Shown here piece by piece: positions 338 through 39,674 of a DNA stretch of 46,966 nucleotides. Under the pieces are notes generated by a model. That model was given only the letters and a program-made list of their open reading frames with translations. It made no database searches and had not been told where the DNA came from. Position 1 is the first letter of the stretch, and each line of letters begins with the position of its first letter. A program made the translations under genes and the position numbers. The DNA comes from Alkalicoccus chagannorensis DSM 18086 (GTDB lineage Bacteria; Bacillota; Bacilli; Bacillales; Salisediminibacteriaceae), in the NCBI RefSeq assembly GCF_000429725.1, contig NZ_AUCK01000032.1:1-46966 (forward strand), read 5' to 3'.

Positions 338-489
338 AGTATAGGAATGTATAAGTTTTCATACAGTGTGACGGCGGCTCCATGCGCTGCTCGGGAAGAA
401 ACAAAGAACGTTTTCTTCCCTCAAAAAGCTTGCAGCGCTTCCGCACGCCGTTCCGGCCAAAAGGCGCTTTGCGCTTTTGTTCTGCTTCT
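338..489 (+). repeat. Dispersed structured repeat, copy A
   Basis: Best-preserved copy of an intergenic repeat family found five times here (A 338, B 9352, C 12349, D 18378, E 39430). It begins at the last T of the rRNA terminator. Parts in order: a small hairpin with TGTAT/ATACA arms near 349-365; an outer arm GACGGCG (370-376) that pairs with CGCCGTTC (446-453); a middle pair GCGCTGC/GCAGCGC; an inner hairpin GGGAAGAAA (393-401)/TTTTCTTCCC (411-420); and a last small hairpin AAAAGGCGC-TTT-GCGCTTTT. No convincing reading frame is conserved between copies. It looks like a mobile or RNA-level element of the MITE/REP kind, but I cannot assign it to a known family. A weak further partial unit may follow near 490-520. 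Confidence 0.8.
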
Positions 490-736
490 AAGATAGAAAT
501 GTAGACGTTCTCATCCAGGGGTTTCGGCGTGCGTCGACAAGGTTCCGCGCATACCGCGATGTACCTATCGCCTCGTATGGCGGGAGAAAGCCATTTAACG
601 CACTTTTTCCCCGGGACGACAGGCTTTCGCCACAGGGCGTCGAGGTTTAGGGGTTCGGGCGACCATTGTTTCCTGTCGCGTAGACCAGTTTTTGCCCGCC
701 ATCGGCCCGGAGACCAAGACACCAGGCCGACATCCG
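490..736. other. Intergenic stretch without recognisable gene
   Basis: Between repeat A and the terminator of the minus-strand genes I see no gene, RNA or promoter that I can support. Open frames on both strands cross it, but they have no ribosome binding site and run through the repeat and the hairpins. The first 30 bases resemble the start of the repeat family (AGATAGAAATGTAGACGTTC versus copy A), suggesting a decayed tandem unit. Confidence 0.5.
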
Positions 737-777
737 TAAAAACGCTCCCGGTAGTCCATGGAGGACCGCCGGGAGCC
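737..777 (-). terminator. Terminator of the minus-strand membrane-protein genes
   Basis: Inverted repeat GCTCCCGG/CCGGGAGC (about 744-776). Read on the minus strand it is followed by GTTTTT, so it fits as an intrinsic terminator downstream of the genes at 934-1789. Confidence 0.6.
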
Positions 778-810
778 GTTATTTGTTGATATGAATCATG
801 AAAGCAGCAC

Positions 811-842
811 ACAGCGGGGAACGTAAAAACGTTGCCCGCTGT
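811..842. other. Strong hairpin downstream of the 48-residue gene
   Basis: Arms ACAGCGGG (811-818) and CCCGCTGT (835-842) with an inner AACGT/ACGTT pair around AAAA. No T-run on either side. It lies between the small gene at 934-1080 and the terminator at 737-777, so it may stabilise the end of that minus-strand transcript. Confidence 0.5.
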
Positions 843-933
843 CAATCTGTTTCATGCGGGAGGGGCACTGCCTGAAGCGGAGCGATCCAGAGGCCCTTCT
901 TGTCTACAGGAGCCCGGTTCGTTGCAGCAGCCC

Positions 934-1080
934 CTATAATAACTGCATAATCAGAGACGCTGCTACGACAACGACGATGATCAGGGCAATGGATTTAATG
1001 AGGCATCCGATGCCCTGCATGATCAGCGGGAAGAAAAAGATAACGAGTACAATAACAAGAATAAGTGTGAGCGGATCCAA
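934..1080 (-). CDS. 48-residue membrane peptide, function unknown
   Basis: A short minus-strand gene with a TTG start (1078-1080). I accept it because a near-perfect ribosome binding site (AAAGGAGGGA, 1086-1095 on the complement) sits at the right distance, and because the product is a clean two-segment membrane peptide. Residues 4-20 and 31-44 are continuous runs of L, I, V, F and A, joined by a short loop with Q22, C26 and K29. It ends QLL at a TAG. It follows the membrane gene at 1172-1789 on the same strand by about 90 nt and could be co-transcribed. I do not recognise the family. No signal suggests a toxin-antitoxin partner, although small hydrophobic peptides of this kind can be holin-like, regulatory, or type I toxins. 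Coordinates are confident, function is not. Confidence 0.7.
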   Translation of the reverse strand: MDPLTLILVIVLVIFFFPLIMQGIGCLIKSIALIIVVVVAASLIMQLL

Positions 1081-1171
1081 CGCGGTCCCTCCTTTCGATA
1101 AACAACGTGTGTCCGGTGCCGGGCATCTTTTCTACTCTTTCCCTTCCGGCAGGGGGACGCAAACAATCGGC

Positions 1172-1789
1172 TCATGCTGCACGTTTCTGCCGGCGGCTGA
1201 ACGTATGCCATAATAAGAGCAGTACTGGTCCGAGCACGGGCAGTAGGGCCGGCCAGACCGGGCGGATATTCCAGTCCCGGCGCAGAATGTCGTACGTCAG
1301 CCACAGCACGACGAGCAGATCAATGCTCATGACGCTGACAAAATGGCTGGCGGTAAAGGCGCTGGTAAAAGCCCCCCAGCTGCCGGCGAGAGCCGTCAGC
1401 CAGGTGAGCAGCCCGAGCAGCAGAATCAGGATGTAGAACAGCCGGTTCTGCAGGGCCTGCTGCAGAAAGCCCGGTCCGCGCGGGGTGTCTCGTTTTCTTT
1501 CTCCCCGGAATGCCAGGTACGGGAGGATGCTGAAAGCACCGAGCCCGAAGGAAATCAGCACAAACGGCCACGCCGGCAGCCAGTACCGGTCGTTCGGCAG
1601 CAGCAGCAGAGCGAAAATGACGGGATAGATCCCGAGGGAAGCAAAGACAGCCGTCACGAGCGGGTCCACTTCATGGAACTGTCCGGTCACCAGCTGTATT
1701 AAATAAGGATCTTCGTTGTTCGCCGCGCCGGGAGCGAAAAAAACGGCATAGGCAGTGAGGAGCAGAAAAACAATGATATAACGTGTCAC
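1172..1789 (-). CDS. Conserved integral membrane protein, 205 residues
   Basis: Starts with GTG (1787-1789) behind AGGAGG at 1797-1802, 8 nt away. The protein has about six hydrophobic segments (roughly 3-20, 42-62, 72-93, 114-133, 145-168, 175-194) and little outside the membrane. The first segment could be an uncleaved signal anchor. A central patch around residues 42-95 (DPLVTAVFASLGIYPV, then PAWPFVLISFGLGAFSILPY) reminds me of an uncharacterised membrane family known from cyanobacteria and plastids, but I am not sure and give no name. In B. subtilis this slot, between the rRNA operon and yaaO, holds csfB, xpaC and yaaN on the other strand, so this is a lineage-specific replacement. It is divergent from yaaO and may form a small operon with the 48-residue gene downstream. 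Confidence 0.75.
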   Translation of the reverse strand: MTRYIIVFLLLTAYAVFFAPGAANNEDPYLIQLVTGQFHEVDPLVTAVFASLGIYPVIFALLLLPNDRYWLPAWPFVLISFGLGAFSILPYLAFRGERKRDTPRGPGFLQQALQNRLFYILILLLGLLTWLTALAGSWGAFTSAFTASHFVSVMSIDLLVVLWLTYDILRRDWNIRPVWPALLPVLGPVLLLLWHTFSRRQKRAA

Positions 1790-1870
1790 GGGAAACGCCT
1801 CCTGTCTTCTGCTTTTAGTATTTCAGAGCCTGGACTGTAATTCAAGACTCAGCTGTGTGTGATTTTTCGT

Positions 1871-1876
1871 TATAAT
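1871..1876 (+). promoter_or_regulatory. Probable -10 element for yaaO-tmk
   Basis: Perfect TATAAT 28 nt before the chosen yaaO start. The -35 region (about 1848-1853) is poor, so activity may depend on an activator or the element may be weak. Confidence 0.5.
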
Positions 1877-1903
1877 GAAACGAGAGAGGAAAGGAGTGCC
1901 GAT

Positions 1904-3271
1904 GTGTTGGATCAAACGCGGATGCCAGTGGTAGACGGACTGCGGCAGCATCAGGAAACGCTGTCGCTGCATGTCCCCGGTCATAAAAATGGACGAGTGC
2001 CGGCCCCCGGGCTCGATTGGTGGAGCGCGGCTGCGGCCTGGGACCTGACAGAAGTAGAAGGATTGGATGACCTGCATGCTCCTCACGGCATGATTCAGGC
2101 AGCGCAGGAGCTGCTCGCGGATCTGTATGGTGCGAAGCGGAGCTGGTTTCTCGTCAACGGGTCGACCGCCGGCAATCAGGCGGCCATTCGTGCAGCGGTG
2201 GCTCCGGGCAGGTGCGTGCTCGTTCAGCGCAGCTGCCACCAGTCCGTTCTCGATGCACTGGAGCTCGCTGGTGCGGAGGTAGTCTGGCTGGAACCCGACC
2301 GGGAAGCAGCGACGGGGATACCGCTCGGTGTTTCGGCCGACGTGCTCACAGCAGCACTGCGGGCGCACCCGGAAGCCGAAGCGGTCCACCTGACATCGCC
2401 TTCGTATGAAGGCTACGTCACGCCGCTCCGGCTGCATGCCGCACTCTGCCGCCGTCATGACGTCACGCTGATCGTCGATGAAGCTCACGGGGCACATCTG
2501 CTGCCGGGAAGCAGAGAGGCTTTTCCTGAAGGAGCCGTGGAGGCTGGTGCGGACCTCGTCGTGCAGTCGGCGCATAAAATGCTGCCGGCACTCACGCAGG
2601 GCGCGTGGCTGCACGGCGTCTCCGACCGGGTGGAGCCGGATCGGGTCCAGCGGATGCTGCGGGCTGCACAGACCAGCTCGCCTTCCTATCTGCTGCTCGC
2701 GTCGCTCGACAGTGCACGGGCCTACGCAGCGGCATTTACGGAATGGAAGGCTCTTGCAGCCGCCGCCGCTCGGGATGCGCTGATGCCGACCGAACTCGGA
2801 GGCTATCGACGTGATCCGCTGAAATGGACGGTGCGTACGGACGAGGTACAAGCAGTCACCGCCGGCCTCCGGCGCGCCGGGCTTTATCCGGAATTGACCG
2901 GCGCAGCACACGTGACGATGACGCTGCCCCTGCACGTGGCCGAAGCGGTGCGCACGGCAGACGTTCTCACCCGGCAGGAGCTTCTGGAGAAAGCAGGCGC
3001 CTCCCTTGTCACCCCGACGGTACCATGGCGGAAGCCGGTGCTTTCTCCAGCGGAGGCGGCCCGTCTCCCTGTAGAGGAGGTCGACAGGCATCAGGCTCCG
3101 GGCCGCACGGCGGCAGTGGACTGGATTCCGTACCCGCCCGGCATCCCCCTTTTTACGAGTGGCGAAGAGGTGACCGAGGCGCACATGGCGCAGGCGGCAG
3201 CGCTGGAGCAGCAGGGCGTCCGCGTGAAGGGTGCCGGGGCGCGGGTACGGGTGTTTCGAGATCATGAATGA
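1904..3271 (+). CDS. yaaO: Orn/Lys/Arg decarboxylase family protein (YaaO-like)
   Basis: PLP-dependent fold-type I enzyme of the ornithine/lysine/arginine decarboxylase family, likely acting on a basic amino acid; the substrate cannot be told from sequence. Visible signs: HVPGHKNG near residues 23-30, the long glycine/serine stretch WFLVNGSTAGNQAA, VDEAHGAHLL (PLP-binding Asp and His), and QSAHKMLPA with the probable Schiff-base Lys225. Length 455 is slightly short of the roughly 480 of YaaO. I chose GTG 1904 because AAGGAG (1891-1896) lies 7 nt before it; a longer frame from 1859 would begin upstream of the likely transcription start. It precedes tmk by 20 nt exactly as in B. subtilis, so the two are probably co-transcribed. 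No connection with sporulation is evident. Confidence 0.88.
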   Translation: MLDQTRMPVVDGLRQHQETLSLHVPGHKNGRVPAPGLDWWSAAAAWDLTEVEGLDDLHAPHGMIQAAQELLADLYGAKRSWFLVNGSTAGNQAAIRAAVAPGRCVLVQRSCHQSVLDALELAGAEVVWLEPDREAATGIPLGVSADVLTAALRAHPEAEAVHLTSPSYEGYVTPLRLHAALCRRHDVTLIVDEAHGAHLLPGSREAFPEGAVEAGADLVVQSAHKMLPALTQGAWLHGVSDRVEPDRVQRMLRAAQTSSPSYLLLASLDSARAYAAAFTEWKALAAAAARDALMPTELGGYRRDPLKWTVRTDEVQAVTAGLRRAGLYPELTGAAHVTMTLPLHVAEAVRTADVLTRQELLEKAGASLVTPTVPWRKPVLSPAEAARLPVEEVDRHQAPGRTAAVDWIPYPPGIPLFTSGEEVTEAHMAQAAALEQQGVRVKGAGARVRVFRDHE

Positions 3272-3291
3272 GGATAAAGGAGACGAGGTAC

Positions 3292-3915
3292 ATGTTTATT
3301 ACGTTTGAAGGTGGCGAGGGTGCCGGGAAATCGACGGTGCTGCGCGCACTGGCAGAAGAGATGGAGCAGGCAGGAAAGCCGGTGCTCGTGACGCGGGAAC
3401 CGGGCGGAAATGCCGTCGCGGAGCGCATCCGCGGGATTGTGCTGGACCCGGCGCATCCGGAATTGGAGGCACGGACGGAGGCACTGCTGTATGCAGCAGC
3501 CCGGCGGCAGCATTTGGCAGAAACGATCTGGCCGCACCTGGAGGCGGGCGGTGTCGTTCTGTGCGACCGGTTTGTGGACAGCAGCATCGTGTATCAGGGA
3601 TTCGCGCGCGGCCTCGGCGTCGACGTTGTACGGGAGATCAACCGGTTCGCGACGGAGGATACGGCCCCTGATGTGACGCTGTATTTCGATATTGCTCCCT
3701 CGGAGGGACTGGCGCGTATTGCTGCGGATGGAAAACGGGAGAACAACCGCCTGGATCAAGAGTCGCTCGATTTTCATGAATCGGTCCGGCAGATGTATCT
3801 GCAGCTGCAGCAGGAGGAGCCGGAACGGATTGTGCGGATTGATGCTTCCGGGACGCTGGCGGACGTGACCGATGCGGCACGAAACGCGGTGCAGAAGGCG
3901 GTCCGGAAGAAATAG
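3292..3915 (+). CDS. tmk: Thymidylate kinase
   Basis: Phosphorylates dTMP to dTDP with ATP in the cytoplasm, the step that commits thymidylate to DNA synthesis. The P-loop GGEGAGKST follows MFITFE at the N-terminus; REPGG (dTMP-binding), DRFVDSSIVYQG (DRx motif) and a lid-region arginine cluster near residues 140-150 follow. Length 207 is normal. The start is ATG 3292, preceded by AAAGGAG at 3276-3282; an in-frame ATG at 3268 overlaps the yaaO stop and lacks a binding site. Stop is just before a separate promoter for darA. Confidence 0.96.
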   Translation: MFITFEGGEGAGKSTVLRALAEEMEQAGKPVLVTREPGGNAVAERIRGIVLDPAHPELEARTEALLYAAARRQHLAETIWPHLEAGGVVLCDRFVDSSIVYQGFARGLGVDVVREINRFATEDTAPDVTLYFDIAPSEGLARIAADGKRENNRLDQESLDFHESVRQMYLQLQQEEPERIVRIDASGTLADVTDAARNAVQKAVRKK

Positions 3916-3942
3916 ACGGAGGACCCACACACCGCGTTTTCC

Positions 3943-3951
3943 TGTTATAAT
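3943..3951 (+). promoter_or_regulatory. Extended -10 promoter for darA-holB
   Basis: TGTTATAAT, an extended -10 (TGn plus TATAAT), 35 nt before darA. No good -35 hexamer is visible, as is common for extended -10 promoters. Confidence 0.65.
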
Positions 3952-3959
3952 ACATATAA

Positions 3960-4316
<357 letters not shown>

Positions 4317-4328
4317 GGAGATGGCATC

Positions 4329-5318
4329 ATGAACCACTGGCAGGACCTTGAAAAGACGCAGCGGACGATCGCCCGCGTCCTGCAGAACAGCGTCATGCGG
4401 GAGCGTCTGGCACATGCGTACGTATTCGAAGGGGGCCGCGGAACTGGCAGACAGGAGGCAGCACTGCTCTTGTCGCAGGCGTTTCTCTGCAGCCACCGGG
4501 ACGGCGCGGATCCGTGCCGTGCCTGCTCCGACTGCCGACGGGCTGCGAGCGGGAATCATCCGGATGTGCATCGTATAGAACCGGACGGCGCATCGATCAA
4601 GGTGGATCAGATCCGGGCGCTGAAAAAAGAATTCAGCATGCGCGGGATGGAGACGCAGAAGAAAGTGTATCTCGTACGCGAAGCCGATAAGATGTCGGCC
4701 AGCGCGGCGAACAGTCTGCTCAAGTTTCTGGAAGAACCGGAAGGAGAGGCGCTGGCGGTACTGATGACGGTCAATGCGCATCAGATGCTGCCGACGATTC
4801 TCTCCCGGACGCAGGTAATGAGCTTTCAACCGCTCTCGCCGGAGAGGGTCATCCGTCACCTGAAGGCGGAAGGATACCCGGAAAAAGAGGCCGCGACGGC
4901 GGCCCGTCTCACCTCGGACCTGGAAGAAGCCGCCGCCTTATTTGAGGAGGAATGGATTTCACAGGCCCGGGCGAAAGTGATACAATTGATGAACGACGTC
5001 ATGCACCGGCCGTCTGACGCCTACATTACGCTGCATGAAACGGTGATGCCGTTTTTTCCCGGCAGAGAACAGGTGGAGCGTGCGCTCGATCTGATCATGC
5101 TCTGGTACCGGGATGTGCTGCGCATGCAGGTAGGTCAGTCAGAGGCCATTGTTTATATAGACCAGGAAGACCGTCTGGCTGAACAGGCGTTCCAGCTCTC
5201 TCAAGGCAGGCTCGGCAGAAACCTCCAGGCAGTGATGGACGCGAAGCGGCGCGTACACGCAAACGTGGCGCCCCAGCTGTTGATGGAACAGCTGCTTCTT
5301 CGTTTACAGGAGGGATAA
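4329..5318 (+). CDS. holB: DNA polymerase III delta' subunit
   Basis: Clamp-loader delta' subunit, a structural part of the tau/delta/delta' complex that loads the sliding clamp. The 329-residue protein starts with LAHAYVFEGG, then a P-loop-like segment GGRGTGRQ in which the usual GK(T/S) lysine is replaced by R, as fits a subunit that does not hydrolyse ATP. A zinc-knuckle region with four cysteines (CSHRDGADPCRACSDCRR) and SLLKFLEEPEG with SRTQ follow, typical of the AAA+ sensor/arginine-finger zone. ATG 4329 has AAGGAG upstream. It overlaps nothing but leaves a single base before ricT, so translation is probably coupled. Confidence 0.95.
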   Translation: MNHWQDLEKTQRTIARVLQNSVMRERLAHAYVFEGGRGTGRQEAALLLSQAFLCSHRDGADPCRACSDCRRAASGNHPDVHRIEPDGASIKVDQIRALKKEFSMRGMETQKKVYLVREADKMSASAANSLLKFLEEPEGEALAVLMTVNAHQMLPTILSRTQVMSFQPLSPERVIRHLKAEGYPEKEAATAARLTSDLEEAAALFEEEWISQARAKVIQLMNDVMHRPSDAYITLHETVMPFFPGREQVERALDLIMLWYRDVLRMQVGQSEAIVYIDQEDRLAEQAFQLSQGRLGRNLQAVMDAKRRVHANVAPQLLMEQLLLRLQEG

Positions 5319-5319
5319 G

Positions 5320-6147
5320 ATGCATCGGGTCATAGGAGTACGATTCAAGAAAACCGGGAAAATCTATTATTTTTCCCCTGGTGATCTTTCGATAGAAAAG
5401 GACGATTATGTTGTGGTGGAGACCGCCCGCGGTACCGAGTTCGGCAAAACGGTCATCGGCGTGAAAGAAGTCGGTGAAGACGATGTCGTGCTGCCTCTGA
5501 AGAAGGTACTGCGTAAAGCGGATGACAAGGACAAACAGACGATCTTAGAAAATAAAGAAGAAGCGCAGGAAGCGTTTGACGTCTGCCTGAAGAAAATCTC
5601 CGAGCATAACCTTGAGATGAAGCTGGTGGATGTGGAATATACATTCGACCGCAGCAAGATCCTGTTTTATTTTACAGCGGAAGGACGAATTGATTTCCGC
5701 AGTCTCGTGAAGGATCTGGCTTCGGTGTTCCGAACCCGGATTGAACTGAGACAGATCGGCGTGCGCGACGAAGCGAAGATGCTCGGCGGTATCGGTCCAT
5801 GCGGCCGGATGCTCTGCTGTTCGACGTTTCTCGGCGATTTTGAGCCGGTGTCGATCAAGATGGCAAAAGATCAGAACCTGTCGCTCAATCCGACGAAGAT
5901 TTCCGGACTCTGCGGGCGGCTCATGTGCTGCCTGAAGTACGAGAACGACATGTACGAAGATGCGAAGAAAGAACTGCCGGATCTGTATCAGAAGCTCGAT
6001 ACCAGCTACGGCAGAGGCAAAGTAGTAGGACTGAACATGCTGGAGCGTCTCGTTCAGGTAGAGATTTTCGAGACGAAACAGGTGATAGAATATACGCTGG
6101 ATGAACTCCTGGAAGAAGGAGCGATCGCCGCCGAAACAACGAAGTAA
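5320..6147 (+). CDS. ricT: RicT (YaaT), PSP1-domain iron-sulfur protein
   Basis: Member of the RicAFT (Y-) complex (with YmcA and YlbF) that directs RNase Y to mRNA targets and affects biofilm formation and competence; in B. subtilis it also affects sporulation. The 275-residue protein shows the PSP1 core and the characteristic cysteine groups GPCGRMLCC (near residue 160) and GLCGRLMCC (near 200), which hold 4Fe-4S clusters in the complex. Ribosome binding site AGGAGGG lies before ATG 5320. Retention of this gene while sporulation genes are lost agrees with its general RNA-processing role. Confidence 0.94.
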   Translation: MHRVIGVRFKKTGKIYYFSPGDLSIEKDDYVVVETARGTEFGKTVIGVKEVGEDDVVLPLKKVLRKADDKDKQTILENKEEAQEAFDVCLKKISEHNLEMKLVDVEYTFDRSKILFYFTAEGRIDFRSLVKDLASVFRTRIELRQIGVRDEAKMLGGIGPCGRMLCCSTFLGDFEPVSIKMAKDQNLSLNPTKISGLCGRLMCCLKYENDMYEDAKKELPDLYQKLDTSYGRGKVVGLNMLERLVQVEIFETKQVIEYTLDELLEEGAIAAETTK

Positions 6148-6162
6148 TGAGGTGGAGGGACC

Positions 6163-6510
6163 GTGAATAAAAACGAACTGTTTTCCCGGGTGAGTCAGAT
6201 GGAGGAGCGGATCGGCGGTCTTCATCACGAACTCGGCGAGCTGAAGGACCAGCTGGCGCAGCTGCTGGAAGAAAATACACACCTGCAGCTCGAAAACGAA
6301 CATCTGCGGGAGCGGATGAACCGGGAGGCCCCGGTGGAAGAAGTCAAAGCAGAAGAGGGCCCCCGGGTGAAAGCAGGGTTCGGGGAAGGGTACGACAACC
6401 TTGCCCGGCTGTATCAGGAAGGATTTCATATCTGCAACCTGCATTACGGCAGCATCCGCAAAGACGGGGACTGCCTGTTCTGCCTCTCCTTCCTGAACCG
6501 GTCTGAATAA
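6163..6510 (+). CDS. yabA: Replication initiation control protein YabA
   Basis: Negative regulator of replication initiation that bridges DnaA and the sliding clamp DnaN. Starts with GTG 6163 behind GGTGGAGGGA. Residues 1-55 form a long heptad-rich coiled coil (tetramerisation), a short acidic linker follows, and the C-terminal zinc-binding part holds C91, H94, C104 and C107 in [17 protein letters not shown]. Length 115 is close to the usual 119. Last gene before a terminator. Confidence 0.95.
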
Positions 6511-6520
6511 CGCGGAAACC

Positions 6521-6566
6521 AAGCACGTGCCGTACCGGTGAAATGCCGGCTGCACGTGCTTTTTCC
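6521..6566 (+). terminator. Terminator after yabA
   Basis: AAGCACGTG/CACGTGCTT arms with an inner CCGG/CCGG pair, followed by TTTTT. It separates darA-holB-ricT-yabA from yabB, so yabB-rsmI need their own promoter; none is obvious in 6567-6660. Confidence 0.85.
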
Positions 6567-6667
6567 TGCAGGGAAAGAAGCGTCGGCCTGCCGCTGCGCA
6601 CGTTCTTCACGGCAGAGAAGGGATCCCTGAGGAACAGAAAAAGAACGAAGGACAAGGAGGGACTACG

Positions 6668-7402
6668 ATGACGGAGCTGAGACTGGATGACCTGCCGGGG
6701 TTCGAACGGCGTATTTATCAGCACAGCGGGATTTTTGCCTATTCGATGGATGCCGTGCTGCTCGGCAGATTCGCACGCGTGGACGGGGCGCGCCGGATGC
6801 TGGATCTCTGTGCCGGCACCGGTGCCGTCCCGCTTGTCCTCAGTACGCGGACGAAGACACCGATCGATGCCGTGGAAGTGCAGGAGCAGCTGTGCCGGCT
6901 CATGGAGATGTCGGTGGAAGAAAACGACCTGCAGACGCAGATCCATCCGGCGCAGGCCGATCTGCGGACGCTCTCCCCGGACACGTGGGGACGCTACGAC
7001 GTCATCACCTGCAACCCGCCCTATTTTCCGGTCCAGGAAAAGGAGAAGTACCGGGAGGACGCCAAAGCGATTGCCCGGCATGAGCTGCTCTGCACATGGG
7101 AGGATATCGCCCGTGCCTGCCGGGTGCTGCTCCAGTCAAAAGGACGTGCGGCGTTTGTCCACCGTCCGGAGCGGACGGCGGAGTTGACCGCGGTACTCCA
7201 GGCGCATCAGCTGGAGCCGAAACGGCTGCAGTTCTGTCATCCGCACGCGGAAAAAGAAGCCAACATGGTTTTGATCGAAGCGGTAAAAGACGGAAAGCCC
7301 GGACTCCACGTGGAAGCCCCGCTGATCGTCTACGATGAGCACCGGCAGTATACAAAAGCATTCGAAGCCCACTATACGGGAAAGGAAGAGACGCATGCGT
7401 GA
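6668..7402 (+). CDS. yabB: TrmN6-like tRNA adenine-N6 methyltransferase (YabB)
   Basis: SAM-dependent class I methyltransferase, related to TrmN6 that modifies A37 of tRNA-Val; the exact target in Bacillales is inferred. Motif I appears as LDLCAGTGAVPLVLS near residue 40, and the N6-adenine signature NPPYF is in ITCNPPYFPVQ near residue 115. Length 244. ATG 6668 follows AAGGAGGGA. The stop overlaps the start of rsmI by 8 nt; yazA (a GIY-YIG nuclease gene in this place in B. subtilis) is absent. Confidence 0.9.
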   Translation: MTELRLDDLPGFERRIYQHSGIFAYSMDAVLLGRFARVDGARRMLDLCAGTGAVPLVLSTRTKTPIDAVEVQEQLCRLMEMSVEENDLQTQIHPAQADLRTLSPDTWGRYDVITCNPPYFPVQEKEKYREDAKAIARHELLCTWEDIARACRVLLQSKGRAAFVHRPERTAELTAVLQAHQLEPKRLQFCHPHAEKEANMVLIEAVKDGKPGLHVEAPLIVYDEHRQYTKAFEAHYTGKEETHA

Positions 7403-9087: not shown

Positions 9088-9351
9088 TGGACAGATAAAT
9101 CGACAGGCTTCAATGACAGGATGAGTAAAAAGGAGCGCGCATCGACAGAGAGCCGGGGGAGCTGAAAACCGGCATGACGCGGACTTTTGAATATGGTCTT
9201 TGTGGAAGCTGCCCTGCGAGCGCCCGGCGCGTAAGCAGCGGCACGGCTGCAGCCCGTTACGCTGCCTGAAGCGGCCGGCTTTCTGCCGGCAACACAGGGT
9301 GGTACCGCGTGAGCTGCGCTCTCGTCCCGGATTGGGATGGGGGCTTTTTTT
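9088..9351 (+). ncRNA. T-box riboswitch of metG (methionine specific)
   Basis: Leader RNA that senses uncharged tRNA. The invariant T-box AGGGTGGTACCGCG is at 9296-9309, and the terminator with CTCTCGTCCC/GGGATGGGGG arms and a T-run ends at 9351. Stem I shows AGAGAG near 9148 and a probable specifier loop GAATATGGTC with Met codon ATG at 9193-9195. Uncharged initiator or elongator tRNA-Met would pair with it and allow readthrough into metG. Unusually, a dispersed repeat separates the terminator from the gene. Confidence 0.93.
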
Positions 9352-11460
<2,109 letters not shown>

Positions 11461-12282: not shown

Positions 12283-12348
12283 GCCGGCAGGAGCGGGAAC
12301 GTCTCAGGAATCGCTGAGACGTTCCTGCTTCTGTCGGCTTCTTTTTTT
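12283..12348 (+). terminator. Terminator of metG-yabD
   Basis: Very long hairpin: left arm 12283-12307 pairs with 12314-12338 throughout, with three G-U pairs, loop GAATCG, then T-run at 12342-12348. Repeat copy C starts at the next base. Confidence 0.88.
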
Positions 12349-12495
12349 ACATGATAGGAATGGACGCGTTTTCATGTAGGGTAACCGCGCAGACGGCTGC
12401 GCGGGAAGAAAGAAAACCCTTTTCTTCCCTCGAAGAGCATGCAGCGACGCCACACGCCGTTCCGACCTAAAGGCGCTCCGCGCTTTCGTTCGCCA
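12349..12495 (+). repeat. Dispersed structured repeat, copy C
   Basis: Begins at the T-run of the yabD terminator. First hairpin arms TACATG/CATGTA, left segment AGACGGCTGCGC, inner hairpin GGGAAGAAA/TTTTCTTCCC, right end CACACGCCGTTCCGACC, and final hairpin AAAGGCGC-TCC-GCGCTTT. The first hairpin differs from copy A at several positions but still pairs. Confidence 0.8.
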
Positions 12496-14145: not shown

Positions 14146-14181
14146 AGACGTCTCAGCAACCAGCTGGGGCGTCTTTTTTTC
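14146..14181 (+). terminator. Terminator of yabE
   Basis: Twelve-pair stem AGACGTCTCAGC/GCTGGGGCGTCT with three G-U or similar pairs, followed by seven T. Confidence 0.85.
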
Positions 14182-17564: not shown

Positions 17565-18392
17565 ATGAAATACCGCCGCAGCGGGCGGCTGGTGGATATG
17601 ACGGAGTATCTGCTGCAGCATCCGCATCAATCGGTTCCGCTCACCTACTTTTCGGAAAAGTACGGGTCGGCGAAATCGTCCATTAGTGAAGACATCGGAA
17701 TCATTAAAGAAGTATTTGAATATAAAGGCATCGGCCGGCTGGCGACCTCAGCCGGAGTCAGCGGTGGTGTGACGTACGTCCCCACGACGAGCCGATCGGA
17801 TGCCGGGCGGATGGTGGACGACCTCTGTACACTGCTGGAAGAGCCGGACCGGCTGCTGCCGGGCGGCTATCTGTACATGATGGACATCATCGGCGATCCG
17901 GCGCTGATGCAGCGGATGGGCCGCATCTTCGCTTCGGTGTTTCAGGAGGAAGGGGTGGATGTTGTCATGACGATGGCAACGAAAGGGATCCCGCTCGCCT
18001 ACGCTGTCGCCTCGCATCTGCATGTCCCCGTCAGTATCGTCCGTCACGAGCAGAGGGTGACAGAAGGATCGCTCGTCAGCATCAACTACGTATCCGGATC
18101 CTCCCGACGAATCCAGACAATGTCGCTCTCGAAACGGAGCCTGAAGCCAGGATCCAGGGTGCTCATCATCGACGATTTCATGAAAGCCGGCGGCACGCTG
18201 CGCGGCATGATGGATCTGATTGAGGAATTCCAGGCAGAAACCGTCGGCGCGGGTGTTCTTGTCGAAGCGGTTCATGAAAAGAAAAAACTCGTGCAGGATT
18301 ATGTTTCGCTGATGAAACTGAGTCAGGTAGATCCAGAAGCCCGCAGAATCAGTGTAGAAAAAGGAAGTTTGTTCGCTGATAAAAATGTATAA
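17565..18392 (+). CDS. purR: Purine operon repressor PurR
   Basis: Represses purine biosynthesis and transport genes; PRPP or ppGpp bound at its phosphoribosyltransferase-like domain adjusts DNA binding. The N-terminal winged helix covers residues 1-70 (MTEYLLQHPHQSVPLTYFSE, YGSAKSSISEDI), and the effector domain carries VLIIDDFMKAGGTL, the PRPP-binding loop. Length 275, about ten shorter than B. subtilis PurR. ATG 17565 follows AGAGGAGG. The final codons and stop lie in repeat copy D, so the C-terminus was probably altered when the repeat arrived. yabJ, normally next, is absent. Confidence 0.95.
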   Translation: MKYRRSGRLVDMTEYLLQHPHQSVPLTYFSEKYGSAKSSISEDIGIIKEVFEYKGIGRLATSAGVSGGVTYVPTTSRSDAGRMVDDLCTLLEEPDRLLPGGYLYMMDIIGDPALMQRMGRIFASVFQEEGVDVVMTMATKGIPLAYAVASHLHVPVSIVRHEQRVTEGSLVSINYVSGSSRRIQTMSLSKRSLKPGSRVLIIDDFMKAGGTLRGMMDLIEEFQAETVGAGVLVEAVHEKKKLVQDYVSLMKLSQVDPEARRISVEKGSLFADKNV

Positions 18393-18511
18393 GCTTTCCT
18401 ACAGGGGGACGGCGCAGCCGGCTGCTCGGGAAGCAGGAAGCATCCATGCTTCCCTCAAAGAGCCTGCGGTACACGCCGTTCCGACCAAAAGACGCTCTGT
18501 TCTCCACCTAA
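18378..18511 (+). repeat. Dispersed structured repeat, copy D
   Basis: Starts inside the last codons of purR: AATGTATAAG, identical to copy A, contains the TAA stop. It continues with GGGGACGGCG, an inner hairpin GGGAAGCA/TGCTTCCC, and TGCGGTACACGCCGTTCCGA. The inner stem differs from copy A by a compensated change (A-T pair to C-G), good evidence that the fold is maintained. It lies between the gene and its terminator and so is in the 3' UTR. Confidence 0.82.
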
Positions 18512-18973: not shown

Positions 18974-19278
18974 TTCACCCATAACGCCATGCAGCAGAGG
19001 GGGAAAGCCCGTTTTCACACGGGTGCTCTCCGCATCGATAAAAAAGAAAGCAGAACGGAGTTGGTTGTACAGGATCAGCTCCTCTTCGTATGGAAAAAAA
19101 GACGCCGATCCAACGGACGGACAAATGCCATCAGAGACGGTTCTGATGGCATTTGTCCGGTGATGAGAATGTAAAAGGCTGCATTTTGGGAGTCGGCAGC
19201 TCTGTCCGCTGAACGAGAAGGACCAAGAGCTGCTGCTCCGGGGTCGGCCGGGAAGTCAGCGGGGATTGCCGGCAGTGC
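18974..19278. other. spoVG-glmU intergenic region with perfect inverted repeat
   Basis: About 300 bp without a gene. The only clear structure is the inverted repeat listed at 19117-19158. No T-run follows it on the plus strand. Confidence 0.4.
19117..19158. repeat. 18-bp perfect inverted repeat
   Basis: Arms CGGACAAATGCCATCAGA and TCTGATGGCATTTGTCCG with loop GACGGT. Downstream on the plus strand is GGTGATGAG, so it is not a classical terminator in that direction. On the complement a T7 run lies about 10 nt beyond the stem. It may be a U-tract-less terminator of spoVG or a protective hairpin. Confidence 0.7.
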
Positions 19279-30247: not shown

Positions 30248-30457
30248 AAAGACAACTTTCGTTGTAGGGAAGAGGTGAATCTCTCCCCTGTAACACCGGC
30301 AGGCAAGCTGCTTATTGCTGCAGCAGGAGGAAAGGACCCACGGCTCGTTGAAGGAAACGGTGCTGCTGTCCGTGTCCGGAATGAACAGAGGGAGGATGCC
30401 TCCCGTAGAAGCCGGCCGCGGATCCGCACACCATTTCAAACAAAAGGAGGCTGACTG

Positions 30458-32065: not shown

Positions 32066-32086
32066 CAACAAGAAAGGAAGAGACCT

Positions 32087-33845: not shown

Positions 33846-33861
33846 GAGGAATCAGCCGGTT

Positions 33862-34401
33862 ATGCATGAAGACATTCTGGAAGTATTAATATCTGAGGAA
33901 GAGCTGCAGACGAAAATCGCCGATCTCGGGGCGGAACTGTCAGAAGAATATGGGGATCGATTCCCTCTGGTGATCGGGATTTTAAAAGGATCCCTGCCGT
34001 TTATGGGGGATTTAATGCAGAAGATGGACATTCATCTGGAATACGATGTGATGGATGTATCCAGCTACGGCAAAGAATTCGTTTCCTCGGGAGAAGTCAA
34101 GATCGTCAAGGACTTGAATACTTCCATTAAAGGACGCGATGTCATCATTCTGGAAGACATCATCGACAGCGGGAATACGCTGAAGTATCTCACGGACCTG
34201 TTCAAGCACCGAGGAGCAAACACCGTCAAGATTGTGACGCTGCTGGATAAACCGGACGGGCGCCAGGTGGACATCTACCCGGATACAGCCGGATTCACGG
34301 TTCCGGACAAGTTCGTTGTCGGCTACGGCCTGGACTATATTGAGCGCTTCCGCAACCTTCCTTATATCGGAGTTCTGAAGCCGGAAGTGTACCAGAAGTA
34401 A
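33862..34401 (+). CDS. hprT: Hypoxanthine-guanine phosphoribosyltransferase
   Basis: Purine salvage enzyme that uses [20 protein letters not shown] near residue 40 and the PRPP-binding [17 protein letters not shown] near 95-112 are diagnostic; [21 protein letters not shown] follows. Length 179. ATG 33862 after TAGGAGGA. In B. subtilis TilS and HprT together control ftsH transcription, and the order tilS-hprT-ftsH is kept here. Confidence 0.97.
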
Positions 34402-34406
34402 ATTGA

Positions 34407-34436
34407 TTGTAGGACAAACAACGTTTGTGATACGAT
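34407..34436 (+). promoter_or_regulatory. Promoter of ftsH with internal inverted repeat
   Basis: TTGTAG, 18 nt, TACGAT. An inverted repeat ACAAAC-AAC-GTTTGT (34414-34428) fills the spacer, a typical position for an operator. In B. subtilis HprT/TilS act at this promoter. Confidence 0.65.
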
Positions 34437-34471
34437 GTGTGAAGTGTATTTGACGTGGGAGGAGGTCCAGG

Positions 34472-36481
34472 ATGAACCGGGTATTTCGTAATACAATGTT
34501 TTTCTTTCTAATCTTTCTTGTCATCATTGGTATCGTAAGTGTGTTTCAGCAGGATACGGATGATACAGAGAGAATTTCGTTCAACGAATTCCAGCAGGAA
34601 CTCGATGACGAAAATATTGAATCACTCAATATTCAGCCGACACTGGATGTATATGAAGCAAGAGGGCAGCTCCAGGACCGGGAAGCAGACGATGAGTTCT
34701 TTGTCGTCAACGTGCCGGATCTGGATACATTCCTCGAAGAAGTTGTGACAGCAGCAGGGACAGAATCCATAGGGGAACTGACCGTCGAACAGGCGGAAGA
34801 ACCGAGCGGATGGCTGAACTTCCTTGTCGTCGTCATTCCGTTTGTGATTATCTTTATTCTCTTCTTCTTCCTGATCAGCCAGGCGCAGGGAGGCGGCGGA
34901 GGCCGCATGATGAACTTCGGTAAGAGTAAGGCGAAGCTCGTCAGTGAAGAGACGAAGAAAGCCCGCTTTAAGGACGTTGCCGGAGCGGATGAAGAGAAGC
35001 AGGAGCTCGAGGAAGTTGTTGACTTCCTGAAAGATCCGCGTAAATTCGCAGAAATCGGTGCCCGTATTCCGAAAGGGGTGCTCCTTGTAGGACCTCCTGG
35101 TACTGGTAAGACACTCATTGCCCGTGCCGTTGCCGGTGAGGCCGGCGTGCCGTTCTTCTCGATCAGTGGTTCCGACTTCGTGGAAATGTTCGTCGGTGTC
35201 GGTGCATCCCGTGTACGTGACCTGTTCGAGAATGCGAAGAAGAACTCACCGTGTATTATCTTCATTGATGAAATTGATGCAGTCGGACGACGCCGCGGTG
35301 CCGGTGTCGGCGGTGGACACGACGAGCGGGAGCAGACGCTCAACCAGCTCCTCGTAGAAATGGACGGGTTCGGTGTCAACGAAGGAATCATCCTCATTGC
35401 CGCTACGAACCGTTCCGACATTCTGGACCCGGCGCTCCTGCGTCCAGGCCGTTTCGACCGTCAGATCACGGTCGGCCGTCCGGACGTCAAAGGCCGGGAA
35501 GCCGTCCTGCACGTGCATGCCCGCAACAAGCCGCTGGATGATTCGGTGGACTTGAGAGCTATTGCCCAGCGTACGCCTGGCTTTGCCGGTGCGGACCTGG
35601 AGAACCTGCTGAACGAAGCAGCGCTTGTAGCAGCACGTTCGGATAAGAAGAAAATCGACATGGCTTCGATTGATGAAGCAATCGACCGTACCATTGCCGG
35701 ACCGTCGAAGAAGAGCCGGGTCATTTCCGAGAAAGAGCGGAACATTGTGGCCCACCACGAAGCCGGTCATACTGTCGTCGGCGTGCGGCTTGAAAATGCC
35801 GATATCGTACACAAAGTGACGATCGTTCCGCGAGGCCAGGCCGGCGGGTACGCGATGATGCTGCCGAAAGAAGACCGTTACTTCATGACAAGACCTGAGC
35901 TGATCGATAAGATTATCGGACTGCTCGGCGGTCGTGTCGCAGAAGAAATCATGTTCAACGAAGTCAGTACCGGCGCGCACAATGACTTTCAGCGTGCAAC
36001 CGGCATTGCCCGGAAAATGATCATGGAATACGGGATGAGCGAAAAGCTCGGTCCTGTACAGTTCGGTAGTTCCGGTGGAGAGGTATTCCTCGGACGGGAT
36101 ATCAACAACGAACAGAACTATAGTGAAGCGATTGCGTACGAGATTGACATGGAAGTGCAGACGCTCCTGAAGAACGCGTACGAAACATGCCGCGAAATTC
36201 TGACAGAGCACAAGGACAGCCTGAAACTTGTAGCAGAAACGCTGCTCGAATACGAAACGCTCGATGCCAAGCAGATCGAGTCCCTTGTCTACGACGGAAA
36301 GCTGCCGGATGACCACCATGCGACGCAGAATGGTCCTCAGTCAGAGCAGATTACGACAGTAGAAGAAGGAAAAGGAACGGATGAAGAAGAGGTTACGGAC
36401 GAAGGGGAAGAACAGACCGGAGAAGAAACGGACCATCCTGATACAGACGATTCGTCCGGCGATGACGACCGTCGTTCGTAA
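34472..36481 (+). CDS. ftsH: ATP-dependent membrane zinc metalloprotease FtsH
   Basis: Hexameric AAA+ protease for membrane and regulatory proteins. Two membrane segments (about 5-25 and 112-134) enclose a small extracytoplasmic domain; Walker A GPPGTGKT at 207-214, Walker B IIFIDEID, arginine-finger region RPGRFDRQ, zinc motif HEAGH at 429-433. The C-terminal tail (from about 610) is acidic and repetitive. Length 669, longer than B. subtilis (637) by that tail. ATG 34472 after GGAGGAGG. In B. subtilis it is needed for sporulation and stress; here kept as general protease. Confidence 0.97.
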
Positions 36482-36506
36482 GGTCATAGTCAAAGCTGAT
36501 GGGGCA

Positions 36507-36552
36507 CTGCCCGGAGCTGCTGCAGCGCAGCCTCCGGCAGGCCTCTTTTTTC
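36507..36552 (+). terminator. Terminator of ftsH
   Basis: CTGCCCGGAG...CTCCGGCAG arms with one bulge, then CCTC and TTTTTT. It implies that coaX starts from another promoter, which I could not find in 36553-36600. Confidence 0.75.
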
Positions 36553-36606
36553 TAGGGGCAGCCCAGTGCGGGTCGATGCCGCCGGGCGCAGGAAAGGGGA
36601 GGTACG

Positions 36607-37392
36607 ATGCATCTTGTTATGGATATCCGCAATGCGCAGGTACACTCCGGCGTGTATGATGACGAAGGAAATCGTCTCTGCAGCTGGCGAATGAAAACCG
36701 ATACGCGTCAGACTGCCGATATGTACGGCATGTGGATCGGTCAGCAGCTGCACAGCTTTGGGATAGAACCAGAACAGCTGGAAGGGGCCCTGCTTTGTTC
36801 TGTCGTGCCGGAAGTGGAAGGTGCCCTGGAGGACGCAGTGTCGGATCACCTCCACCTGCCTGTTCTGTTTGTAGGTCCGGGGATCCGTACCGGGATCAAT
36901 ATTCTGTACGACAATCCGCGCGAAGTGGGGGCAGACCGTATCACGAATGCCCTCGCCGGACGGGAGCAGTTCGGCAGTCCGCTCATCATTGTTGATTTTG
37001 AGACGGCGATTACGTATGGTTATGTTAATGAGCAGGGACAGTTTGCCGGCGGGGCTATTACGCCCGGCATGGATTTGGCTATGGAAGCCTTGTCTACGAA
37101 AGCTTCCCGGCTCCCGCGGATCGATCCGCGCCGCAGCGAGCCCGATGTGATCGGCCGCAGCACAGCGGAGGCACTCCACGCCGGGTGGCGCTACGGCATC
37201 ATCAGCCAAGTGGAGGGAATGATTCACCGTATCCGCCGCCGTTCCGGCAGCCAGGTGAAAGCGGTGGCCTCGGGAGAGCATGCTGACTGGATGACAAGGG
37301 AGATTCCACAGCTGGAGGAAGCCGCCCCGTTTTTGACGCTCGATGGACTGCACCTGTTATTTGAAAAAAACCGGACGGCCTTCCCGTCGTAA
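36607..37392 (+). CDS. coaX: CoaX-like type III pantothenate kinase with altered motifs
   Basis: Overall a full-length (261) type III pantothenate kinase, the first enzyme of CoA synthesis: the PREVGADRITNALAG stretch (catalytic Asp110), GGAITPGMDLAMEAL, SRLPRI, VIGRSTAEALHAGWRYG and the end FLTLDGLHLLFEKN are recognisable. But the three nucleotide-binding signatures differ: DxGNT is D6-I-R-N-A10, DFGTA is D130-F-E-T-A134, and the (T/A)TGG region is A221-S-G-E-H225. These are glycines and a threonine that contact phosphates in the family. The protein may be inactive or use other cofactors; another kinase (CoaA or type II) would then be expected elsewhere. ATG 36607 follows GGGGAGG. It stands between ftsH and hslO as in B. 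subtilis. Confidence 0.88.
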   Translation: MHLVMDIRNAQVHSGVYDDEGNRLCSWRMKTDTRQTADMYGMWIGQQLHSFGIEPEQLEGALLCSVVPEVEGALEDAVSDHLHLPVLFVGPGIRTGINILYDNPREVGADRITNALAGREQFGSPLIIVDFETAITYGYVNEQGQFAGGAITPGMDLAMEALSTKASRLPRIDPRRSEPDVIGRSTAEALHAGWRYGIISQVEGMIHRIRRRSGSQVKAVASGEHADWMTREIPQLEEAAPFLTLDGLHLLFEKNRTAFPS

Positions 37393-37436
37393 CTGACGGC
37401 ATCGGCCCCGGACATGGAAAAAGGAGAAGATAGAAC

Positions 37437-38321
37437 ATGAACGACTATATTGTCAAAGCACTGGCCTACGAAAAGCAGGTCCGCATTTATGCAATGAAAT
37501 CAACCGATATGGTGAGCGAAGCAGCCCGACGTCATCAGACATGGCGTACGGTTACTGCTGCGCTGGGACGATCGCTCACAGCCGGAGCGATGATGGGAAG
37601 CATGCTCAAAGGAGACGAGAAGCTGACGATCAAAATCGAGGGAAGCGGTCCTGCCAGCCCGATCATTATTGATGCTGCGGCAGATGGGAGCGCACGCGGA
37701 TACGTCAACCGCAGCGCAGCCGATCCGGAACGTCATGCTGACGGAAAGCTCAACGTGGCCGCGGTCGTTGGAGAAGAAGGCACCTTGTCGGTAGTGAAGG
37801 ACCTCGGCATGCGCGACCACTTCACCGGCAGTGTCCCGCTCGTTTCAGGAGAACTCGGCGAAGACTTCACGTATTACTTTGCAACCTCGGAACAGACGCC
37901 ATCCTCCGTCGGTCTCGGCGTTGTGGTTGGCGAAGAAGACAAAGTCGAAGGTGCCGGAGGCTTTATTCTGCAGATCATGCCGGATGCTTCCGAAGAGGTG
38001 CTTGATGAAATCGAAGCAAGGCTTCACGCACTGCCGCCGGTGTCGGCGATGATCCAGCGCGGCGACACGCCGGAGCAGATCATCATGCAGCTGGCGGGAG
38101 AAAGCAATTACCAAGTGCTCGAAACCCAGGAAGCGCGCTTTGAATGCAACTGCTCCAGGGAGCGGGTGGAAAACGCGCTCTCCATTATCGAAGAATCGGA
38201 GCTGCATGCGATGATCCACGAAGATGAAGGGGCAGAAACGACGTGCCATTTCTGCAGCGAAGTGTACCTGCTTTCCAAGCAGGAACTGCAGAATATCATG
38301 GACCGACGGCAGGCCGAATAA
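37437..38321 (+). CDS. hslO: Redox-regulated chaperone Hsp33
   Basis: Holdase activated by oxidation and unfolding. Zinc is held by C237 and C239 (CNC) and C270 and C273 (CHFC), the standard CxC-CxxC pattern. The N-terminal domain has GRSLTAGAMMGSMLKGDEKLTI. Length 294. ATG 37437 follows AAAGGAGAAG, 44 nt after coaX. In B. subtilis yacD (a PrsA-like foldase gene) follows; it is missing. Confidence 0.96.
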   Translation: MNDYIVKALAYEKQVRIYAMKSTDMVSEAARRHQTWRTVTAALGRSLTAGAMMGSMLKGDEKLTIKIEGSGPASPIIIDAAADGSARGYVNRSAADPERHADGKLNVAAVVGEEGTLSVVKDLGMRDHFTGSVPLVSGELGEDFTYYFATSEQTPSSVGLGVVVGEEDKVEGAGGFILQIMPDASEEVLDEIEARLHALPPVSAMIQRGDTPEQIIMQLAGESNYQVLETQEARFECNCSRERVENALSIIEESELHAMIHEDEGAETTCHFCSEVYLLSKQELQNIMDRRQAE

Positions 38322-38369
38322 GCGGGCGCAGCTGTTTGCTTTTTTTTCCGTTATCTGCTAAAGTGACAG

Positions 38370-38375
38370 TATAAT
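38370..38375 (+). promoter_or_regulatory. Probable -10 of cysK
   Basis: TATAAT 44 nt before the start, in a short AT-rich stretch; the -35 around 38346-38352 is poor, so an activator or a weak promoter is possible. No clear CymR site could be identified. Confidence 0.5.
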
Positions 38376-38419
38376 ATATTAAACACATTAAAATAGTAGG
38401 GATTAAAGGAGGCAGCACC

Positions 38420-39349
38420 ATGGTAAAGGTAGTCAACTCTATTAACGAACTGATCGGGGGGACGCCCCTCGTTAAACTGCAGCGGATGGTATCAGATCAG
38501 CACGCAGACGTATATCTCAAGCTGGAATTCATGAATCCGGGCAGCAGCGTGAAAGACCGCATCGCGCTGTCGATGATTGAAGCAGCCGAAGAACAGGGGA
38601 ACCTGAAGCCGGGAGATACTATTATTGAGCCGACGAGCGGCAATACCGGCATCGGCCTGGCCATGGTAGCCGCTGCCAAAGGATACAGCAGTGTGCTCGT
38701 TATGCCGGACACAATGAGCATGGAGCGACGGAACCTCCTGCGTGCCTATGGCGCCGAGCTGGTGCTCACACCGGGAGAAAAAGGCATGAAAGGCGCCATT
38801 GCCCGTGCCAACGAGCTGCAGCAGGAGCATGGCTACTTCATGCCGCAGCAGTTCGAAAACGAAGCGAATCCGAAAGTGCACCGTGAAACGACAGGGAAAG
38901 AGCTGCTGGAACAAGTCGGCGATCAGCTGGATGCCTTTATTTCCGGCATCGGCACCGGCGGGACGATCACGGGAGCCGGGGAAGTACTCAAAGAGAAGTT
39001 CCCGGACATGCAGATCGTGGCGCTCGAACCGGAACTCTCTCCTGTTCTGTCCGGAGGCGGACCGGGTCCGCATAAAATTCAGGGGATCGGTGCCGGCTTT
39101 GTCCCAGGCATTCTCAACACCGACATTTACGATGAAGTGATGCAGGTCACGACGGAACAATCGTATGAATACGCACGACGTGCAGCGAGAGAAGAAGGCA
39201 TTCTCGGCGGCGTGTCATCCGGAGCAGCCATTTATGCGGCGCTGCAGACCGCAGAAAAGCTCGGCAAAGGAAAGAAAGTCGTGGCCGTCATCCCTAGTAA
39301 CGGGGAACGTTACCTCAGCACCCCGCTTTATCAGTTCGAAGACGAGTAA
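38420..39349 (+). CDS. cysK: O-acetylserine (thiol)-lyase, cysteine synthase
   Basis: PLP enzyme making cysteine from O-acetylserine and sulfide. [12 protein letters not shown] contains the Schiff-base lysine (near 43), [12 protein letters not shown] binds the substrate carboxylate, [15 protein letters not shown] binds the cofactor phosphate. Length 309. ATG 38420 after AAAGGAGG. Confidence 0.97.
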
Positions 39350-39389
39350 ACACGAAGAGCTGATCCCGATCGATCAGTCTGCCTTCCCC

Positions 39390-39429
39390 CTCCCGTCCGA
39401 AGCAGCCGCTTCCGGCGGGAGTTTTTTTT
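39390..39429 (+). terminator. Terminator of cysK
   Basis: CTCCCGTCCGAAGC/GCTTCCGGCGGGAG stem with loop AGCC, then eight T. Repeat copy E begins at its last T. Confidence 0.92.
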
Positions 39430-39543
39430 GTTTTGTAGGAAAGCATAAAATGTCATAGCAGGAAGACGGCGGCTTCTTCCCTCGAAAAACTTGCGGTACA
39501 CGCCGTTCCGATCAAAAGGCACTTGGCGCTTTTGTTCTCTGCT
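39430..39543 (+). repeat. Dispersed structured repeat, copy E
   Basis: Begins at the cysK terminator T-run. It keeps GAAGACGGCGGC, the right half CTTCCCTCGAAAAACTTGCG, the outer right arm GTACACGCCGTTCCGA and final hairpin AAAAGGC/GCGCTTTT. The left half of the inner hairpin is deleted, the mirror image of the deletion in copy B. Confidence 0.8.
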
Positions 39544-39545
39544 GG

Positions 39546-39674
39546 GAGTGGATACGCTTCTCTAGAGGACGACGGTGGTTGTGTCTGCTGCCCGGAAAGA
39601 ACGACGAACGCTTTCTTCTGCAAGCCTGCAGCGGCGTCCCTCGTTTCGGCCGCAGGATGCTGCCCGCTTTTGTC
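39546..39674 (+). repeat. Second, tandem unit of the repeat (E2)
   Basis: GTGGATACGCTTCTCTAGAG, GACGACGGTGG, CTGCTGCCCGGAAAGAA, CGAACGCTTTCTTC, CCTGCAGCGGCGTCCCTCG, TTTCGGCC and GCTTTTGTCC follow the order of copy A. Strongly diverged but recognisable over its whole length. E and E2 together fill most of the cysK-pabB gap; 39675-39773 shows nothing else. Confidence 0.6.

Follow-up and report, generated by a model that had tools for sequence, protein, structure and literature searches.

Folded non-coding repeats behind intrinsic terminators of Alkalicoccus chagannorensis: a probable terminator-targeting mobile element

A 46,966-nucleotide stretch of the genome of Alkalicoccus chagannorensis DSM 18086 (contig NZ_AUCK01000032.1, positions 1 to 46,966; hereafter the window) carries several similar intergenic repeats, which raises the question of what they are and how they came to lie where they do. 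A preliminary description of this DNA had listed five copies with up to three diverged tandem partners, and had proposed either a mobile element resembling miniature inverted-repeat transposable elements (MITEs) or a family of small structured RNAs. We find that they belong to a family of non-coding elements of ~130–147 nt, and we have little doubt that this family is mobile and terminator-targeting: a non-autonomous, terminator-seeking element with a conserved folded strand. The preliminary description missed the most informative feature, which is the position of most copies directly behind intrinsic terminators, in sense orientation. Terminator targeting and mobility rest on several independent lines of evidence, namely position, copy number, an empty site and patchy spread.

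For 74 copies that have a 5′ end we read the preceding 55 bases, and terminators recur among them. Sixty-six of these copies score at least 60 and, with nine tandem copies set aside, we tested the remaining 57, which include a few standing after degraded element copies. The scoring asked for two features: at least three Ts among positions −8, −7, −6 and −4, and a hairpin with an energy of −8 kcal/mol or lower whose end lies 3–13 nt before the element start. The Ts were present in 52 of the 57 copies, the hairpin in 46 and both in 42, compared with both in 16 of 600 random positions, one of 57 opposite flanks and three of 57 positions 40 nt downstream. Individually, T occupies −8, −7, −6 and −4 in 48, 51, 52 and 53 copies, respectively, while −5 and −3 are mixed and −2 and −1 are free. 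Where the distance could be measured (50 copies), 43 elements begin 8–10 nt past the tract's first T, 8 nt being the commonest distance (21 of 50). Its orientation is mostly sense, the same as that of the terminated gene; copies change strand along contigs, and replication bias is here not separated from gene orientation. The element's own 3′ end (hairpin, TTTTGTTC) matches the target motif, and tandem copies sit behind the 3′ hairpin of another copy, usually with one base between them.

The family proved to be far larger than five copies once covariance models were built and the genome and its relatives searched. The pattern ACGCCGTTCYG occurs 126 times in the genome, far above chance, against four occurrences of the reversed pattern, and a covariance model with an RNAalifold structure of 14 pairs (R1) scored at least 150 places. 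Many copies are damaged. One 145-nt sequence, however, is letter-identical at four places (twice in tandem on contig C2, once on C10 and once on C17), which points to recent spread. Around the pattern matches we first fetched 40 stretches out of the first 100 places, and others later; nhmmer yielded 68 matches in these 40 loci and the window. Our alignment A4 comprises 43 copies, with fragments and some near-duplicates excluded; both R1 and a second covariance model (R2), for which a structure of 34 pairs was set by hand, were built on it.

The empty site is found at metG (9469–11460, identified by Pfam). Upstream of this gene, copy B (9354–9453, plus strand; R2 55.6 bits, E 2.1e-10, not a seed of the model) lies behind the terminator of the T-box leader (9318–9353, plus strand; stem 9318–9344, T-tract 9345–9351), so that within 9318–9469 the terminator is parted from the metG ribosome-binding site. 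Seven metG loci of the same genus were compared: six run from the T-box terminator straight into the ribosome-binding site, insert-free, and the seventh does not show the T-box motif. The motif just upstream of the terminator, TGGTACCGCG, which we take to be that of a T-box, is common to the window and six relatives without the insert. Copy B is without the inner stem's 3′ arm and also without the 3′ hairpin, which if intact would stand before metG. T-box-like terminators also precede one of the two copies in the same-genus genome G006 (locus L047) and a copy in Alkalihalobacillus bogoriensis (L161).

Among relatives the distribution is patchy. Including the genome itself, R1 matched 4 of 60 genomes, R2 matched 10 of the 397 genomes of the order, and a third model (R3), with eight places scored per genome, matched 14 of the 397 genomes in 10 of 135 genera. 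R3 was built from a cross-genus alignment, A6 (34 matches, 33 distinct rows, 30 loci, four genera); four of the 14 genomes (G000, G006, G039, G150) supplied A6 sequences, and ten are independent of it. In Salipaludibacillus neizhouensis, we found 66 exact 5′ leaders against one control match, and the 3′-end pattern of this species retrieved 70 stretches in A. bogoriensis (G039), S. neizhouensis and one Halalkalibacter hemicellulosilyticus contig. These stretches contain 72 3′ ends, and for 28 of them an exact GATAAGAA leader lies no more than 200 bases away. Of the 28, which come from two named relatives, 23 stand behind a hairpin and T-rich tract, compared with 3 of 400 random positions; the T criterion here was 6 of 12 bases, unlike that of the 57-copy test, and the 44 3′ ends lacking such an exact leader were left out. 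Many copies in A. bogoriensis have internal deletions with both ends kept. In distant genera the 3′ hairpins have other sequences and the upstream terminator is, by eye, less regular. Plasmid collections gave no match for three element types, and phage collections none for one type.

Tandem arrays also occur in other genera (L282, L275, L281, L271), where only the last copy keeps the full palindrome and the 3′ hairpins of inner copies are truncated. Separately, a second dispersed structured repeat seems, by eye, to recur in L206, L210, L271 and L273; in L206 it reads TTTCCGCGGGC...CCTCCTCGG...TGCGGGGTCT...CCGCAGGAGTC, and in L206 and L210 it appears directly behind the same 5′ leader, GATAAGAATTTATAAAAT.

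A full copy consists of a 5′ leader (AKKATARGAATGTATAAGTTTTCATAC), a rod of three helices with an A-rich internal loop, and a terminator-like 3′ hairpin. The outer stem of the rod is GACGGCG/CGCCGTT, the middle stem CGCTGC/GCAGCG and the inner stem GGGAAGAA/TTCTTCCC with a short loop; the ~11 A-rich bases lie on the 3′ side, between the inner and middle stems. The 3′ hairpin reads AAAAGGCGC-TTT-GCGCTTTT followed by GTTC, and its terminator-like form AAAAGGCGC-TTT-GCGCTTTTGTTC. None of the 43 copies contains a gene-sized open reading frame (ORF), the longest complete one having 39 codons. Two extensions of this anatomy were discarded: continuing the 3′ hairpin to the last base is unsupported, as the bases of the added pair (124/147) fail to pair in 30 of 42 copies, and the spacing within the 5′ leader is, by eye, unfit for a promoter.

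The mobile half of the MITE proposal is borne out by copy number, identical copies, patchy distribution and the empty site; its MITE-like half is not, since in this genome the element has neither terminal inverted repeats nor a target duplication. Comparing the first 20 bases with the reverse-complemented last 20 in 43 copies gave a mean of 4.5 matches and a maximum of 9, and equal 4-, 5- or 6-mers across the insert occur in 0 of 54 copies; shared flanking 2-mers (2 of 54) and 3-mers (1 of 54) are at the shuffled level. Palindromic ends occur in a few relatives from other genera.

There is a strong probability that the folded single strand matters. Single-sequence folds of the five window copies were modestly better or no better than those of shuffles (z −2.61 to +0.17), and the structural case rests on covariation. 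In A4, 92.5% of the cells are paired versus 91.2% in shuffles, with 16 double-change cells versus 5.5; the copies differ too little to allow a firmer conclusion. A6, which was fitted to the R2 structure and hence leans towards it, has 193 double-change cells compared with 70.4 (standard deviation 6.5) in shuffles, a covariation score of 0.424 compared with 0.169 in shuffles and at most 0.120 in slid versions, and 23 pairs changed on both sides compared with 10 to 14 in slid versions. The fold described at the outset as structured is thus supported across copies and, above all, across genera. Unaligned minimum-energy folds of four representatives contain the rod in all four and a clear 3′ hairpin in three; in the A. 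bogoriensis-type representative, part of the 3′ hairpin arm pairs with the 5′ leader instead. Sense-strand mismatches in otherwise Watson-Crick pairs are G-U in 26 cases versus A-C in 9, and pairs with G-U as the commonest type comprise 42 G-U and 0 A-C.

Two variant forms deserve mention. On the minus strand of L204, at about position 468 of the reversed locus, the 3′ half of a copy is a near-perfect reverse complement of its 5′ arm, a form as if from snap-back copying. In S. neizhouensis (L061, L062, L132, L187, L190, L209), another hairpin (CCTTTCGAGTAGCACCTACACG...GTAGGTGCTACTCG and variants) replaces the inner stem, and the tip of the rod looks like an exchangeable module.

Returning to the window, R2 locates six copies, of which A, C and D are seeds and match by construction; the five of the preliminary description lie within a few bases of where it placed them and align from leader to 3′ end, except for the parts absent in B and E. 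Copy A (338–482, plus strand; 167.2 bits) is full-length, with its 3′ terminator-like hairpin at 460–478, and follows the terminator (292–337, plus strand; stem ~292–329, T-tract 330–337) of a 5S rRNA gene (171–287), whose hairpin of −35 kcal/mol adjoins the element start. Copy C (12351–12491, plus strand; 129.9 bits), also full-length, lies behind a terminator region (12283–12349, plus strand, limits by eye) that follows a tatD-like gene (Pfam). Copy D (18376–18502, plus strand; 107.1 bits) stands at the extreme end of a purR-like ORF (17565–18392, Pfam), and the last codons and the stop codon of this ORF come from the copy (18376–18392). Copy E (39432–39537, plus strand; 68.0 bits, E 4.6e-13, non-seed) follows an intrinsic terminator (39390–39429, plus strand; stem 39390–39421, T-tract 39422–39429; hairpin −21.7 kcal/mol) and lacks the 5′ arms of the inner stems; it and B have thus lost opposite stem halves, as had been described. 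The A-T to C-G change in the inner stem, first noticed between A and D, is present in 9 of the 43 copies (A4 columns 64/79).

Of the up to three tandem partners one passes R2, the diverged copy E2 immediately behind E (39539–39675, plus strand; 45.1 bits, E 3.6e-8, non-seed). Contrary to the preliminary description, ACGCCGTTC has two further occurrences in the window, both in minus orientation (6704, 17108). Two further plus-strand pieces have no R2 match at E≤0.1: a 5′-half fragment immediately after a palindrome (19162–19237; nhmmer 27.0 bits) and a very weak fragment that may be a chance match (30345–30447; nhmmer 18.7 bits, E 9.7e-5). Strong plus-strand terminator-like sites without an element at 14146–14174 and 38320–38341 show that not every site is occupied. 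A tRNA-Asn (anticodon ATT) called by ARAGORN at 42872–42953, inside a long ORF (42725–43591), is probably a false positive.

How does such an element move? The target would be read as a folded hairpin with its T-tract, fixing insertion 8–10 nt after the start of the tract. With less assurance, the element RNA may be a read-through transcript of the upstream gene that stops at the element's own terminator, and may be copied by a trans-acting, terminator-targeting reverse transcriptase, most plausibly of the group IIC intron type. Movement through RNA with such an enzyme is a tentative proposal, which we infer from the geometry and the strand signal. On this view the element would correspond in bacteria to the short interspersed nuclear elements (SINEs) of eukaryotes. 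Taken whole, a terminator-targeting element moving as RNA with a trans-acting group IIC-type enzyme is our best explanation, and we regard it as evenly poised between right and wrong.

A group IIC-type enzyme is our first candidate, on account of where class C introns are said to insert and of introns in a relative that share the spacing of the element. In the portions of PMC4424553 available to us, group IIC introns are described as inserting at intrinsic terminators, immediately behind them, an insertion geometry that the element shares, and introns without an endonuclease as using replication-fork primers. Three group II introns of S. neizhouensis, identified as such by Rfam, lie in sense orientation behind a terminator stem followed by TTTTATGT or TTTCTTGT, and each begins precisely 8 nt past the first T, which is the commonest distance of the element as well. 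The genome of the window has a group II intron at a contig end, with a related 470-aa reverse transcriptase.

Several observations weigh against this explanation, in whole or in part. As to position, 15 of the 57 copies fail the combined terminator test (a few of them follow degraded element copies), and copy D has TTTGTTCG upstream, at the purR end, with no stable hairpin. As to the fold, A4 has 7 pairs changed on both sides versus 4 to 9 in slid versions, and tolerance of G-U is equally compatible with single-stranded DNA. In contrast to group IIC introns, the element has no ribozyme domains (no Rfam match to D1–D6 or domain V) and no reverse transcriptase gene, and it ends in a terminator-like hairpin. 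The introns are putatively of class C by insertion position, not by phylogeny; two of the three S. neizhouensis flanks are near-identical, and the assembly of the window's genome does not include the 5′ junction of its intron. In A. bogoriensis, where element copies are many, a search with the intron enzyme found no relative at E≤1e-20. Nor is there a clear association between intron enzymes and elements: a near full-length intron enzyme occurs in four of nine searched element-bearing genomes versus one of six without elements. Our searches, which covered reverse transcriptases, Y1 transposases, the genome's own intron enzyme and IS110 while other recombinase families were not searched for, found no element-specific enzyme. 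Finally, no observation distinguishes an RNA route from a DNA route.

A DNA route is a possible alternative, if a doubtful one. A recombinase or a single-strand (HUH/tyrosine) transposase would recognise the folded terminator and the 3′ hairpins of the element as DNA and insert a circular or single-stranded element beside them, its partner enzyme having been lost or left unassembled. The resemblance of the element's 3′ end to the left side of the target, as for two recombination sites, speaks for it, as do the head-to-tail arrays, the arrays of other genera in which the first hairpins are truncated and the last is full, and the one IS605-type element found immediately behind a terminator. Yet the free and mixed bases at −2, −1, −5 and −3 leave no strict target tetranucleotide, the genome has one Y1 transposase match among the enzyme families searched, IS110 is a visitor and not a parent, and no autonomous copy came to light. 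For the last point, we surveyed 20 leader-fetched loci (5 from the window's genome, 15 from S. neizhouensis). Nine lacked the same element's 3′ end nearby, and at these orphan 5′ ends, in a draft genome, no autonomous version was found; seven downstream ORFs from four of them are ordinary genes by Pfam, the other loci being judged from translations. A transposase-bearing full-length version with the same ends, suggested as a check at the outset, was thus looked for and not found. The single Y1 match belongs to an IS605-type element (L087, G000:C11, ~15291) that starts immediately behind the terminator TTTTTTAC; an IS200/IS605 parent was rejected on this single match and on the missing fixed target tetranucleotide.

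It is very unlikely that the family is a domesticated, immobile RNA part, such as a back-up terminator or a stabiliser of 3′ untranslated regions (UTRs) selected behind terminators. Strong covariation in several genera, the terminator-like 3′ hairpin and the sense orientation behind terminators would suit such a role, whereas most relatives have no match, many copies are damaged, the identical copies point to recent spread, and copy B, standing before metG without its 3′ hairpin, is not kept there as a terminator.

Membership in a structured repeat family already known from Bacillales, such as bcr1, is slightly less credible still. In the parts of the sources at hand, bcr1-type repeats of the Bacillus cereus group appear as structured, intergenic, MITE-like sequences of ~150 nt (PMC3446304, PMC2267715), with bcr1–3 called MITE-like and often located in UTRs (PMC3446304), so that size, location and fold are similar. 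However, these parts describe no terminator targeting and no bcr insertion behind terminators, a separation by description and not by sequence, and the element has no Rfam match: none at the gathering threshold over the window copies, and none at E≤5 over copies in L018, L043, L044 and L046. True introns, by comparison, are detected by Rfam. A match to a known Rfam family or to a fragment of an insertion sequence (IS), outcomes named beforehand as refuting, did not emerge. Searches of open-licence literature found no description of such an element, which is weak evidence of absence.

We give hardly any credence to derivation from an IS110-family element, of which the repeat would be the end or the bridge RNA. 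IS110 transposase starts do stand at seven contig ends of the genome, six of them after AGTATAAGAAA, the 5′ end of the element, or a closely similar sequence. In three other genomes, however, the IS110 relatives (8, 7 and 1 copies) agree at the left end from GCATTCCTGTA on and differ before it, so that the IS was inserted into the element; an IS boundary at GCATTCC, inside the element, refutes parentage for these copies, and A. bogoriensis has elements and no IS110 match. The IS110 C-terminal domain was not found in the assembly of the window's genome. With six of seven copies of this multi-copy IS110 in the 5′ leader (L225–L231; G000 contig ends C30, C16, C14, C9, C33, C4, C17), the element is itself a landing site for IS110. 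IS110 elements insert into REP-type repeats.

REP/REPIN sequences with RAYT transposases are short folded repeats that are moved in trans. The element differs in being several times longer than the 20–40 bp of REPs, as given in the part of PMC3733652 available to us. It also differs in that its genome has the one Y1 transposase match, of IS605 type. Eukaryotic SINEs are non-autonomous, non-coding and folded and rely on a reverse transcriptase that is not their own and has the same target. The element shares the first three properties and would depend on a foreign reverse transcriptase; it differs in having no target duplication, and its RNA intermediate is inferred only. That it is the first bacterial SINE, a folded non-coding RNA parasite that uses the reverse transcriptase of a group IIC-type intron in trans and is homed to terminators, whose own 3′ terminator both ends the RNA and acts as the next landing site, is a speculative and, at present, unlikely reading.

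Many bacteria carry short folded repeats, and how they move is unknown. Here, the landing site at the end of the terminator T-tract is so specific that it leaves a small set of possible enzymes and turns the matter into a testable question. If the RNA route is true, it would amount to trans-parasitism of a bacterial intron enzyme, as by SINEs on long interspersed nuclear elements. For the genes concerned, the family illustrates that a mobile element can reshape 3′ ends and T-box leaders, such as that of metG, and leave the terminator intact.

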